A stretch of DNA of 64,000 bases from Crambe crambe (taxonomy: Eukaryota > Porifera > Demospongiae > Poecilosclerida > Crambeidae): the NCBI GenBank assembly GCA_963924555.1, contig OZ004583.1:1955501-2019500 (forward strand). Reading direction: 5' to 3'. This document shows positions 10,069 through 63,578 of the stretch, one piece after another. A program made the translations under genes and the position numbers. The notes beneath the pieces are model-generated. The model made no database searches, had not been told where the DNA came from, and was given only the letters and a program-made list of their open reading frames with translations. Positions within the stretch are counted from its first letter, which is position 1. The number at the start of each line of letters is the position of its first letter.

Positions 10069-10393
10069 AGGCCACTATTTATAGAATGATTGTTTCCTGT
10101 CCACCGCCCGCGTATTGAAAATGTCACCGCATCAAAAAATATTATTACTGCCTAGCGCCTGCCATTGCTCATGCGCGCAGTAGAGCGCGCACATTTGGCT
10201 TCACATGCAGCTCTTTTTGGGAAAGCCCATGGTGAATGACTAGTCTCGCGGGCCGCGAGACTAGTGAATGATGAAGACAGGACCCTTGAGATAAACAACG
10301 AAGCAGTAATAGAATAATTATAATAACCGCCCGCCCGCAGCACTTGTGGATGTTTTCTTGGACAGGAAACTAGGATTCTATAAATAGTGGCCT
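10069..10393. mobile_element. MITE with AGGCCACTATTTATAG ends
   Basis: AGGCCACTATTTATAGAAT...TTTCCTGTCC at the left is matched by GGACAGGAAACTAGGATTCTATAAATAGTGGCCT at the right, broken here by ellipsis only for brevity. A two-base duplication (TA/AA) is possible but unproved. It ends about 100 bp before the TATA box of the downstream gene and contains a second, 23-bp insertion. Confidence 0.65.
10241..10263. mobile_element. 23-bp micro-insertion, TAGTCT...AGACTA, 9-bp TSD
   Basis: TAGTCTCGCGG and its complement CCGCGAGACTA meet at a one-base centre, so the whole 23 bp is a palindrome. It is flanked by GTGAATGAC (10,232-10,240) and GTGAATGAT (10,264-10,272), a 9-bp duplication with one mismatch. 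Its ends match three other 9-bp-duplication insertions in the window. Confidence 0.75.
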
Positions 10394-10488
10394 AAAGGCG
10401 CATACTAGTAAGGGGTCGTCAAGTGCGCAAATTCGCGCTCGCGCTGCGCGATCGCGACGCGGAGTGGCGGCGCGCGCGGCTGGCCAGC

Positions 10489-10495
10489 TATAAAT
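10489..10495 (+). promoter_or_regulatory. TATA box of membrane-protein gene
   Basis: TATAAAT lies 82 bp before the ATG at 10,577, just after a GC-rich, CpG-rich block (10,420-10,485) that stands out in this AT-rich region. Position and context fit a core promoter. Confidence 0.55.
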
Positions 10496-10576
10496 GCGAT
10501 CGCAATCGCAGTAGCCTGGGCATTTTTTTTGCATCTCGCTGAATTAGACTACTCAGTTGTGTCTGAAAAATCACCA

Positions 10577-12118
10577 ATGGAGAATGCAGATGAAATGGCT
10601 AGTCACCATTCAGTAGATCGAGACGGAGCAGTGGCCCAGCATTATCAAGATAGTACAATACTTGCAATTGCAGAGCGTTTGATTGGGGAAGGAGAGCTAG
10701 AGGATGATGATTTAGAAGATGAAGATGAATCTTTTGGTAATTGCCTTGACATATCTTGTGTTTACACATGTTCTCCCAAAATTTGTGAAACGAAAAAATT
10801 TTTTAAATCAAATCTCTTACGCAGAGCACGAGATCATAGTGTAAAGATTCTAGCATTTGATGGGATTATTTTCCCTCTTCTTCCCAACCTTATGCGGGAT
10901 ATAGTGGTCGGTGGTGAGCTCTTGTACACCATTGCTGGTCTAATTCTCTCAGTTATTAGCTATGTAAAAGCTGATTGCCATCGAACCTTTAACTTGGTTA
11001 GCTTTGTATTGGGTTCAGTAGCAATGTTGCTGAGCATTGCTAGCACATTTGAAGCATTTTTTAATAGATGCAGGAAACACTTCTGTAATAATGATGACGA
11101 AAAAGGAACTTCAATTTTTGCAGAGTTAATTAATGTGTTACGAAATGTTTTTGCTGAACTTTTAATTTATCCAGTCTTGATATGCTCCATCTTCAGTTTA
11201 GTAACAGGTAGACCATTTTCATCAGGAGCTCCTGAAGATATAGTGATGCTTATACGATTTGGATTGTCTGCTATTTCCTTTATAGCTTTTGTCTACATCT
11301 TGCGTCTTATTATTCTTGTAGGTGCAATATTAAAAATTAAGGCCTCTTGCAAGACCCTTTACTTTCTAGTTTATTTTTCCATTCATGTTGCATTACAAAT
11401 GATCGTCCAGATCTTTATGATTGTGGTCACAGGGAGAGAAATTTATGAAGAAAATCTTCACTTTTATAACACTTCAATCCAGAACTTTACTGATTTCGAG
11501 ACAAGCTGTTTACCAGTTAAAATTAGTGGTTATTTGTGGTATATGATAATAGGAAGTTATCTCTTTCCCATAATGGGCGTTATGATGTTCTTTGCAGTAG
11601 GATTTTACTGGATGCAAGAGTTTTTTATTGGAATTTTTTCACTGATTCCGGGTTTATTGAAGTCATCTGGACTTTCTGATGCTCACAAAACAGTGAAAAA
11701 GGCGATTGAAATGATCAACAAGAATTTCCCCCAAGAAAAGTTTAATGATGAATTTTGTGAATTTAGTGAAGTTTGTGTTTGTGAAAAATTAATTTACCCT
11801 TTTAAGAGTCCTCTACTGGTTATAACGTGCATCTTATTCCTGATTTCAAATTACCTCTTTATAAGCGTTGGAAACTACGGAACTGCCATTGATTTTCTTG
11901 GCCCTATCAGCTTCTTCCATTCTTTTCATGGTTCCGTTGGCTGGTCACTTGTTTATTTAATTGGTGCTATCGTTGGAATCTTAGCAAACCTCTATGCATT
12001 CCTCGTTGGTATTGTGTGGTTGATCCTTATCGAAATAATCATTATGATAATTCTCTCACAATGTCTAATCCTCATCTTGTGTTACTGCATATGTGGGAAT
12101 AAAAAAGACGGGGAATAA
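10577..12118 (+). CDS. Multi-pass membrane protein, 513 aa, unknown function
   Basis: Intact single-exon frame. The first in-frame ATG is at 10,577 (MENADEMASHH). The open frame extends 48 bp further upstream without an ATG. The N-terminus (about 85 residues) is hydrophilic and acidic, with LEDDDLEDEDESF, followed by a Cys-containing stretch (CLDISCVYTCSPKIC). After it come about ten hydrophobic segments, in mature-numbering terms near 100-125, 140-165, 195-220, 230-260, 265-290, 330-360, 365-385, 430-450 and two or three in 465-510. The C-terminus is CYCICGNKKDGE. A predicted extracellular loop at about 300-320 has two N-glycosylation sequons (NTS, NFT). I do not recognise the family; no kinase, channel or transporter signature is evident. 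Lack of introns could mean retroposition or a naturally intronless sponge family. The frame is free of damage and has its own promoter, so it is probably expressed. Confidence 0.85.
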   Translation: MENADEMASHHSVDRDGAVAQHYQDSTILAIAERLIGEGELEDDDLEDEDESFGNCLDISCVYTCSPKICETKKFFKSNLLRRARDHSVKILAFDGIIFPLLPNLMRDIVVGGELLYTIAGLILSVISYVKADCHRTFNLVSFVLGSVAMLLSIASTFEAFFNRCRKHFCNNDDEKGTSIFAELINVLRNVFAELLIYPVLICSIFSLVTGRPFSSGAPEDIVMLIRFGLSAISFIAFVYILRLIILVGAILKIKASCKTLYFLVYFSIHVALQMIVQIFMIVVTGREIYEENLHFYNTSIQNFTDFETSCLPVKISGYLWYMIIGSYLFPIMGVMMFFAVGFYWMQEFFIGIFSLIPGLLKSSGLSDAHKTVKKAIEMINKNFPQEKFNDEFCEFSEVCVCEKLIYPFKSPLLVITCILFLISNYLFISVGNYGTAIDFLGPISFFHSFHGSVGWSLVYLIGAIVGILANLYAFLVGIVWLILIEIIIMIILSQCLILILCYCICGNKKDGE

Positions 12119-61418: not shown

Positions 61419-61695
61419 CAGGGTTTCATCTACTGCACTGGGGGGTGCAGGGGGTAAGCTTCTCCCCCAAACCCTCAATCTTCCCCCCTAAACTCCCCCC
61501 AAGGCTGCTCCCTTTGGTGACCACAGGTTGTTACATGTAGTCACCAAAGGGAGTAATTAAGGACCAATTTGGGATACTTCAGATTGGTAAACATTTTTGG
61601 CTTTGCGCGGGAGGGGGGGGAGGGCACATCCCCCTCCCATATCTTCCGATCGGTGAGCTTCCCCCCCCAAGGTAAAATTCCTAGATGAAACCCTG
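61419..61695. mobile_element. 277-bp hAT-like MITE, TSD TGAAT
   Basis: Ends CAGGGTTTCATCTA and TAGATGAAACCCTG. TGAAT flanks both sides (61,414-61,418, 61,696-61,700) and belongs to the array unit word CTGAATGGAC, so the empty site is known. Same 5-bp duplication class as the element at 1280. C- and G-runs with CTTCCCCCCC inside. Confidence 0.88.
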
Positions 61696-61840
61696 TGAAT
61701 GGACTTGCATGAGATAAACACAAATCACTGACTTCTATTATCAGTGATATAATAATTATGTTTCCCCTCATGTTAATGCAATCTGAATGGACTGTGCATG
61801 AGATAAGCACATATCACTGACTCAGTTTACATAATGCACT

Positions 61841-63349
61841 CTGAACCATGCATTGGATATTAGCATGTATCTAGCTAGCTTACCATGATGTGAGAGATTA
61901 TTATGGCGGAGTATAGTGGAAGGATCTGTCCAGAGTACATACTCTTTTTCCCCATCAAAGGGAGAGAGGAGGAAGTTTTCATCACAGTAGCCCAATGACA
62001 TGGTATATATGTCCAGATTAGATATAGCTATTAGCTATAGAGTTATTATTGGTTGTTAATTGTTACCACATTAACAGACAGCTGAGGTGGACACTTACTT
62101 GAGGGGTATTCAGAGTGATGTTCAAAATAAGAAAACAATTACCAACCTGTATAACTATATTGCAAGTTATGTGCTCTGGCTGCTATTAGTACAAAGCTAG
62201 CTATACGTAGCTATAATTTTTGAAATGATACTTTCTTTTAAATGCAGGCAATGATTCTCCTTATAAGCAAAAGATTTGGACTCTGCTATAGCTAGAGATG
62301 CAAAAGAACTCAAACAGAACAAAGAATAGCTATATATAGTTATAATTAATGTATCACTATGACATCACTTTTTTTGAAAATAATTTGGTGTACAACACCA
62401 GGACCATGCATCAACTAGCATAGCATGGCCCTACACAAGAGATAGGGAAAATAGAACAATGGGGAAAAATCAACAACAAAAACGAAAACAACAACAAAAA
62501 AAAAAAATCAAAAAAAACAACGACAAAACACTAGCTACAAAAATTTTTTTGATAGCTATTTTAAATGCACTATTTTGAAGATAGGGAGATGGTACAGTGT
62601 CCCACGAATGTACCACACTCTCACAAAGACTGACATTTTGTGATATTTTGTTTGAACCAAATAGTTGGCAAGAGTTGACCTGTTGGAGGTTTGAATTGCT
62701 TGCAGGGAAAAATATCATGGGTGGTATAAGAGAATAGCCAGTCATAATTCTTCAGCACAGACACAGCTTCTGACAACTCCTTCTGGAGAGATATAGCTAT
62801 AGCCCAATCCAACTCCTCACCAGCGGCAGAGATACTGGGGGGGGGGGGGCAGGGGGGCTCTAGCCCCCCCACTTTTTGACAGTTGATGCCCACTTTTTGA
62901 CAGTTGATAATTGAATAATATACATGTATTATTAGTACATTGTGGTATGTGCCACCAGCCCCCCCCCCCCCCCCCCCCCCCCCCCCCCCACATTTGTTGT
63001 GGTGTTTCTGCCCCTGCTCACACACAATCTGGAGCATCCCCTGTGGTCAAGCTACTGCTATAACAGGCTCATTATAACTGAATAGCTATAATCATATTCA
63101 TATACAGTGGAACATCTCTAAAATGGACCAAGCATTTTTTGTCTGTAGTTTATAGCTACAATTAAGGGATTATATCTACTGCATGCCACCCCTGAATTGC
63201 AGATTACCTCCACCACACATGTACAAAGACCACACACCATTAGTAGCTATCAGATTATGGCATAGCTAATCCCGGCAGGCGAGGGAACAATTTACCCTGG
63301 GGAACATCTATCCCTGAGCGCTTTAAAAAAAACGAAATCCAGTGTTATG
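61841..63349. other. Non-coding part of the 5.5-kb element
   Basis: No gene seen. A-rich CAACAACAAAAACG tract at 62,468-62,530, G-run at 62,838-62,850, C-run of about 30 at 62,959-62,989. TACAGTGGAACATCTCTAAA at 63,103 is a lone pogo-like terminus. Confidence 0.45.
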
Positions 63350-63578
63350 CGTTCGGGAGAACAGATATCCCTAGAGTTATGCGTTCGGGGAACACGCGCC
63401 ACTGGGAAACACATATCACTATAACACCGGCGCAGTTCCGTGACCGCTGCAGCCCGACCACCAGACCCCTTCCTCGCGTGCTGGTGATGCAATACATCCA
63501 GTGCTGTGAGCTAGGGGGCTGGGACAGAGACTACCCAACGTCACTTCCGGTTGTTAAATAGATGTGCATTCTTTCGAA

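Follow-up and report, generated by a model that had tools for sequence, protein, structure and literature searches.

Four insertions in the genome of the sponge Crambe crambe begin with TAGTC, end with GACTA and range from 23 bp to 5.5 kb, which raises the question of what moved them and whether units of a few tens of bases can be mobile in their own right. They lie in a stretch of 64,000 nucleotides of contig OZ004583.1 (C5:1955501-2019500), which we call the window and which was analysed together with 143 Mb of genome on 119 contigs; all whole-genome counts given here are lower bounds. An earlier note on this DNA, made from the letters alone, had described the insertions as members of one family, and we found each of them exactly where it had placed them:

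10241..10263, no strand assigned: 23-bp member TAGTCTCGCGGGCCGCGAGACTA; duplication 10232-10240 / 10264-10272, alike at 8 of 9 positions
19669..19758, no strand assigned: 90-bp fold-back member of the TAGTCTGGTGAACC subfamily; 9-bp duplication TCTGATGAC, 9 of 9; relatives in the genome
50256..50291, no strand assigned: 36-bp member; 9-bp duplication TGCTGGAGG, 9 of 9
58060..63533, forward strand: 5,474-bp member of the TAGTCTCTGTCCC subfamily; 9-bp duplication CCCAACGTC, 9 of 9; no transposase recognised inside

Duplications of 9 bp had been claimed for all four. Three are exact, whereas the pair beside the 23-bp member (GTGAATGAC/GTGAATGAT) is only 8/9 alike. Sequence sharing between the 90-bp and 5.5-kb members is borne out by the 17-mer AGCACTGGATGTATTGC, which occurs in the 90-bp element and at both ends of the 5.5-kb element, and which is found in the genome 53 times on the plus and 55 times on the minus strand (best 100 of these 108 places listed), with no occurrence of the reversed control. 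Given the common TAGTC ends and the 9-bp duplications, the proposal of one family from 23 bp to 5.5 kb holds, and all four window insertions belong to one DNA-transposon group.

For this group we find, beyond the common ends and duplications, uninserted sites, members of many sizes, DUF6589 domains in three subfamilies and one complete element with an exact duplication. We consider it likely that the insertions form one transposon group with the DUF6589 protein as its probable transposase, that the tiny forms are remnants of longer copies, and that the 23-mer was copied by a carrier repeat.

Long elements and the DUF6589 protein

The 5,474-bp element is bounded by long terminal inverted repeats and contains a frame that recurs in its relatives:

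58060..58160, forward strand: left terminal repeat of the 5,474-bp member (101 bp used as query); genome matches 98-100% identical (best 40 of 90)
63433..63533, reverse strand: right terminal repeat, 100% identical to the left over 101 bp
58250..58517, forward strand: first-exon-like frame (CxxC...CxxxC), present subfamily-wide; frame change in the 5,474-bp copy

The 40 best of 90 candidate matches to the 101-bp repeat, all at 98-100%, pair into 16 elements. Eleven of these are 589-758 bp long and are spread over 9 contigs; the others measure 1,297, 2,074, 4,359, 5,156 and 5,474 bp. Exact duplications flank a 732-bp copy and a 1,355-bp copy, the first 180 bases of the latter matching at both ends. 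A 613-bp unit of the TAGTCTCGCG subfamily was found at two places, the copies being 98.5% alike; one is flanked by an exact 9-bp duplication, the other by an 8-bp word beside an extra TA. A non-autonomous form of 0.6-0.75 kb therefore recurs as a unit, and multiplication at unrelated sites, a trait of miniature inverted-repeat transposable elements (MITEs), is seen for the 589-758 bp members, with flanks known for the 732-bp and the two 613-bp copies.

The first-exon-like frame is common to the TAGTCTCTG subfamily. It has 36 matches in the genome, and for 35 of them family marks (best 100 of 108 places) are no more than 6 kb away. We found no host parent of this exon outside the elements, although one too diverged to reach the threshold would have gone unnoticed. 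Recent capture from the host was rejected on this ground, and with the same proviso we read the exon as the element's own sequence.

The 5.5-kb window element itself contains neither a MULE (Mutator-like element) nor a DUF6589 match, and Pfam searches with five frames in or beside it gave sub-threshold matches only. Its interior includes a tandem array with hairpin-like units (TATCACTGACTTCTATTGTCAGTGATA) at about 59700-61800.

Coding sequence was recognised in other long members. The interiors of three long TAGTC elements were sampled, 700-801 bp each, and that of an element on contig 17 matched DUF6589 (PF20231) on two neighbouring frames at 6.8e-5 and 4.7e-5, below the curated cut-off. A genome search with DUF6589 gave 110 matches, which represent exons rather than genes. 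In the 5,156-bp TAGTCTCTG element at C1:5604851-5610006, both ends of which are matched, the domain scores 2.0e-43 with one stop; in the TAGTCTGGTGAACC element of contig 17, which measures 5 kb if its right end is deduced from the 17-mer, it scores 1.4e-30, likewise with one stop. The element end lies 1,770 bp beyond the domain on contig 1 and 1,813 bp beyond it on contig 17, the latter figure depending on the 17-mer. Three further DUF6589 copies have identical scores, and two of them, on C3 and C20, were examined at the end predicted from the geometry on contigs 1 and 17. These copies are identical for 513 bases, up to ...CTATGCCAGACTA (ending ...CCAGACTA), and diverge from the next base, so that both end at AGACTA. 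DUF6589 is thus found within TAGTCT elements of three subfamilies.

The C3/C20 end was then used as a query, and the best 40 of 211 candidates were scored. Each of the six best matches (98-100%) is 2,003-2,461 bp from a DUF6589 domain whose 3' side faces it, and two weaker matches (95-96%) have DUF6589 inward with the 5' side facing; the estimated chance expectation is 0.18 of 40. Two of the six are the query copies and a third is their equal-scoring twin, which leaves three to five places as independent support.

From its right flank, the other end of the C20 copy was expected to read CAGACTTTG-TAGTCT. A degenerate search that took in the flanks of both copies returned a match at C20 and none at C3 (50 in total vs 49 in the control, only the position being informative). 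Against an expectation of 0.27, the exact 15-mer CAGACTTTG+TAGTCT has a single occurrence in 143 Mb. It lies on the minus strand at C20:3738984-3738998, 2,096 bp past the other side of the C20 DUF6589 domain. The resulting element (C20:3733757-3738989) is 5,233 bp long and has an exact 9-bp duplication and a DUF6589 frame that is open for 437 residues. One of the two DUF6589 copies tested is therefore complete with an exact duplication. The earlier note had suggested looking for a full copy with a transposase frame; such an element has now been found in outline, with DUF6589 in place of a recognised Mutator-like protein. Near the newly placed C20 end, a RecQ-like start is present on the opposite strand. 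It matches TIGR00614 at 1.3e-9, as a fragment far below the full-length cut-off, PF00270 at 1.8e-6 and RecQ chains in the PDB at 1e-5. A 75-residue DUF6589 fragment found no relatives in prokaryote and viral contigs.

From these sequence comparisons, DUF6589 is most likely the transposase of the group, and we infer that it does the cutting and joining. Complete members would be about 5 kb long and encode the DUF6589 protein, and those of the subfamily whose end is known would also have a RecQ-like helicase gene, close to one end and read from the other strand. The second recurring form would be the non-autonomous one of about 0.6-0.75 kb, and all would have long terminal inverted repeats and duplicate 9 bp on insertion.

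The duplication length had earlier been taken to point to a Mutator-like transposase, and the group could in principle be Mutator-like or Rehavkus-like, in which case DUF6589 would either belong to that clan as a divergent member or simply be a passenger. Nine-base duplications and long terminal repeats are Mutator traits, the duplications of the TAGTC group falling within the 8-11 bp range described for Mutator-like elements in PMC6446971. Rehavkus, as characterised in the same source, has 9-bp duplications, terminal repeats of 26-400 bp and a minisatellite, and a tandem array is present inside the 5.5-kb window element. MULEs do occur in this genome, with 54 matches. However, when the 6 kb on the inner side of 80 terminal-repeat matches (best 40 of 90 plus best 40 of 211) were inspected, they contained none of these 54 matches to the MULE catalytic domain PF10551, whereas DUF6589 was present at 10 of the same 80, three of the ten being seed copies or their twin. 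Nor was an enclosing TAGTC pair with a 9-bp duplication seen in the MULE regions examined, which represent 20 of the 54 matches and of which 19 could be judged (in L031 the domain is at the cut edge). Where MULE ends could be read by inverted-repeat and copy comparison, they begin with CGCAGTGG, GCGATTTT, GGTTGCAA or CGAAGTGG, unlike the TAGTC ends. The attribution to a Mutator-like transposase is thus not upheld, and we regard a Mutator or Rehavkus affinity as unlikely.

Three of the MULE loci (L029, L042, L043) are complete elements of about 5.6-6.2 kb, with 20/20 terminal bases matching and exact 9-bp duplications. L042 and L043 are 99.4% alike over 6.2 kb, which suggests that these MULEs were recently active.

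Small members and their origin

The exact 23-mer has 42 copies in the genome (18 on the plus and 24 on the minus strand), of which 20 were examined besides the window's own. All 20 are at the identical point of one carrier repeat, which in the window has the following extent:

10069..10393, no strand assigned: MITE-like repeat that carries the 23-mer; its inverted arms of 35 nt occupy 10069-10103 and 10359-10393

The carrier arms show 91% complementarity. The right flank of the 23-mer is constant (GTGAATGA...), preceded by an extra TA in two copies, and the left flank is mostly constant. When up to 2 mismatches are allowed, the uninserted 27-base carrier junction is found at 69 places, including 20 exact ones, and its control at none. 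Since all examined copies sit in one carrier and the carrier also exists without them, the 23-mer is a single insertion copied by its carrier: a genuine insertion with a 9-bp duplication, but one event that the host repeat has multiplied in every copy examined. The chief argument for a 23-bp transposon is thereby lost, and the 23-mer was rejected as an active unit.

Small members other than the 23-mer were collected with the pattern TAGTCTCGCG-N(1-30)-CGCGAGACTA, which is found at 95 genome places and nowhere in the reversed control. The best 50 of the 95 comprise 23 canonical 23-mers (the window's included) and 27 others, 20 of which were examined. Exact 9-bp duplications flank seven of these 20, and one-mismatch 9-bp duplications two, one being a 22-bp variant inside the carrier. 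Exact 8-bp duplications were seen in three rows, two of which are one duplicated site, and in two members the 9-mer is kept but stands 1-3 extra bases off the element end. At L038, L056, L062 and L069, two or three extra bases (TA or ATA) separate GACTA from the duplication.

Identical small sequences among the 20 were restricted to the pairs L071/L072 and L081/L083, which have common flanks. L076 has the flanks of L081/L083 and is exactly 12 bp shorter inside, giving forms of 39 bp and 27 bp. This is one insertion at two inner lengths, as deletion in place predicts. No further pair with similar flanks was found among the 20. L076, L081 and L083 constitute a second repeat context that bears a small TAGTC insertion, here with no visible 9-bp duplication.

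When 26 small rows were compared with the available terminal repeats, five could be accounted for in full by one left and one right arm that overlap by 0-2 bases. These are the 23-mer of the window and its 22-bp variant (both from one site), L070, L080 and the 115-bp L045, which bears no duplication. In L070 and L080 both arms are those of the 613-bp element, with a different junction point in each. The fit leaves two bases unexplained in L079 and an extra 8 bp in the 90-bp window copy. With the latter as query, 13 other full-length fold-back matches of 81-110 bp were obtained in 11 different lengths, a comparison confined to the elements themselves.

The 36-bp member is the one for which the window itself supplies uninserted sites. 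Three Reeler-type gene copies are present at about 43.9, 50.0 and 63.6 kb, so classed from a match to the Reeler domain (PF02014) at 2e-5 on the exon-like frame that follows, and the middle copy has the insert. Insertion and duplication together amount to 45 bp, so the frame stays open and the remnant puts 15 codons in frame into this gene copy. The corresponding sites in the paralogues are:

44151..44159, forward strand: empty site TGTTGAAGG of the gene copy near 43.9 kb, from paralogue comparison
63779..63787, forward strand: matching empty site of the gene copy near 63.6 kb, which has three additional bases at this point

The earlier note had proposed that, if one transposase moves them all, it needs only about 5-10 bp of end and such insertions are "micro-MITEs"; in that reading, units of 23-50 bp would themselves be mobile. 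Tiny units with exact 9-bp duplications do occur at unrelated sites (seven of the 20, the 38-bp one in L004 and the 36-bp one in the window), and a single site does not tell a recent deletion remnant from a recent tiny insertion. Against this, the sole high-copy tiny unit seen is a passenger in 20 of 20 examined copies of 42, the identical pairs share flanks, L076 is the L081 insertion minus 12 bp, and L070 and L080 equal joined arms of one longer element. None of the 20 other small sequences examined, of 27 listed, was found at two unrelated flanks, a strong though not exhaustive result: the comparison drew on the best 50 of 95 places and left out one identical pair on contig 10. The multiplication at unrelated sites that characterises MITEs was thus not seen for the tiny members among 20 of 42 23-mers and 20 of 27 listed others, and we judge the micro-MITE proposal to be improbable.

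The tiny members are best read as remnants of internal deletion. A young internal deletion keeps the ends and the duplication, which is the pattern seen in the small members; because remnants need not move, they do not tell how much end sequence movement requires. Forms of 22-115 bp would be what stays at the original site once a longer copy has lost its inside and its terminal repeats have been joined, the original duplication being kept. We infer that the inside is lost either through cruciform-prone deletion or through excision followed by interrupted gap repair; arms of tens to hundreds of bases may favour cruciforms or interrupted repair and so the joining of arm to arm. The 23-mer would be such a remnant within another MITE-like repeat, which multiplied it.

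Two further observations concern the fold-back members. One additional member, outside the earlier note, was found in the window and has a similar copy at C5:1935167-1935276:

46990..47099, no strand assigned: additional TAGTCTGGTGAACC-subfamily member of the fold-back type, which has lost its left tip and shows no duplication

The 90-bp insertion is adjoined, at 19789-20274, by a frame that we read as retrotransposon integrase-like and that has no Pfam match.

Contrary observations and remaining alternatives

Several observations do not fit this account easily. For 32 of the 40 scored matches to the C3/C20 end, no DUF6589 match lies in the 6 kb on the inner side, which means that full elements are a minority among the copies bearing this end. 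At the C3 copy the expected 9-mer was not found at the other end, and at C20 the 5' end was placed by word search alone. Six of the 20 small members have no duplication. Only the five small rows listed above, from four independent sites, are fully two-arm, the repeats compared not including the parent of most others, and the fits of the 23- and 22-mer are weak, as the search pattern fixed 20 of their bases. Finally, the 4,359-bp element (C13:2909603-2913961) contains an unrelated frame with what we read as DDE-like motifs, which could be an alternative transposase or a nested or captured gene.

This contig-13 frame (L090, C13:2911600-2912400) is open for at least 231 aa, and if it were the transposase, DUF6589 would be an accessory gene. 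The frame is flanked by terminal repeats with matches of 98 and 99%, and it includes acidic motifs, spaced along its length, that we read as LDDKH, TDGGPDH and NPVERV. Yet it was present in one of the three long elements sampled, runs opposite to the element's shared first exon and was seen at no other examined locus, whereas DUF6589 recurs in three subfamilies. It had no match in Pfam or NCBIfam and nothing significant in the PDB. On balance we think it quite improbable that this frame moves the group.

That TAGTC-ended pairs with 9-bp repeats simply arise by chance in any long sequence can be dismissed: even though five other pentamers equal or exceed TAGTC in the window, 57 of 59 composition-matched letter orderings score zero in a larger set (TCAGT and CAGTT excepted), other duplication lengths are nearly empty, and the TAGTCTCGCG..CGCGAGACTA pattern was absent from its reversed control. 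In the window, TAGTC pairs have exact 9-bp duplications in three cases and any other length from 5 to 13 in a single case, of 5 bp. Exact 9-bp cases are absent for 1,010 of the 1,024 pentamers; the high scores of TCAGT (44), TTTGC (14), AAAAA (13), ATAAT (4) and GTCAG (3) are presumably due to tandem or simple repeats. The larger set of 264 kb, composed of the window and 20 ten-kb stretches around MULE matches and hence not a random sample, contains five exact TAGTC cases, compared with 309 for TCAGT and 2 for CAGTT. We attribute the TCAGT excess to the tandem array of the 5.5-kb element, in which the units read ...TCAGTGATATG.... The earlier note had allowed that TAGTC cases might be no commoner than in shuffled sequence; they exceed the composition-matched orderings.

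Comparison with known systems

We see about an even chance that PF20231 is the transposase of an undescribed eukaryotic superfamily, defined by 9-bp duplications, TAGTCT...AGACTA ends, an opposite-strand RecQ-like helicase and two-arm remnants of 20-50 bp that are able to enter coding exons in frame. If true, a Pfam family so far without a known function would acquire one, and a likely transposase could be assigned to repeats that had no known mover. We found no paper that names DUF6589 or describes the TAGTC group, within a partial coverage of the literature and with the proviso that a Repbase entry under another name may exist. More generally, claims of a "smallest transposon" can arise from deletion remnants that keep perfect ends and duplications; here, one remnant reached 42 copies as the passenger of another repeat, judging from all 20 examined.

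MULEs and Pack-MULEs resemble the group in their 9-bp duplications, long terminal repeats and non-autonomous derivatives. However, no MULE domain was found in TAGTC elements, whose termini are unlike those of the readable MULEs of this genome, and no host parent was found for the shared first exon, above the threshold of the search. Rehavkus, in the outline given in PMC6446971, has the same duplication length, terminal repeats of 26-400 bp and internal tandem repeats. Its transposase is said to have a PHD finger, whereas the TAGTC group has DUF6589 and a different Cys motif in its first exon, a comparison made by description. KolobokH and Kolobok-1_CCri are reported in PMC9587614 to carry a RecQ helicase accessory gene, on the complementary strand in Kolobok-1_CCri, which is reminiscent of the RecQ-like frame in the C20 element. 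Kolobok duplicates TTAA, whereas the TAGTC group duplicates 9 bp of varied sequence. Like MITEs and fold-back elements, the small TAGTC members are short, with terminal repeats, flanking duplications and no transposase, but the smallest were not seen to recur as units, whereas the 0.6-0.75 kb class does. hAT elements are characterised by 8-bp duplications and YARNG ends. The TAGTC group differs from them in that its duplications are mostly 9 bp, with a minority of 8 bp, and in that TAGTC does not have the fifth G.

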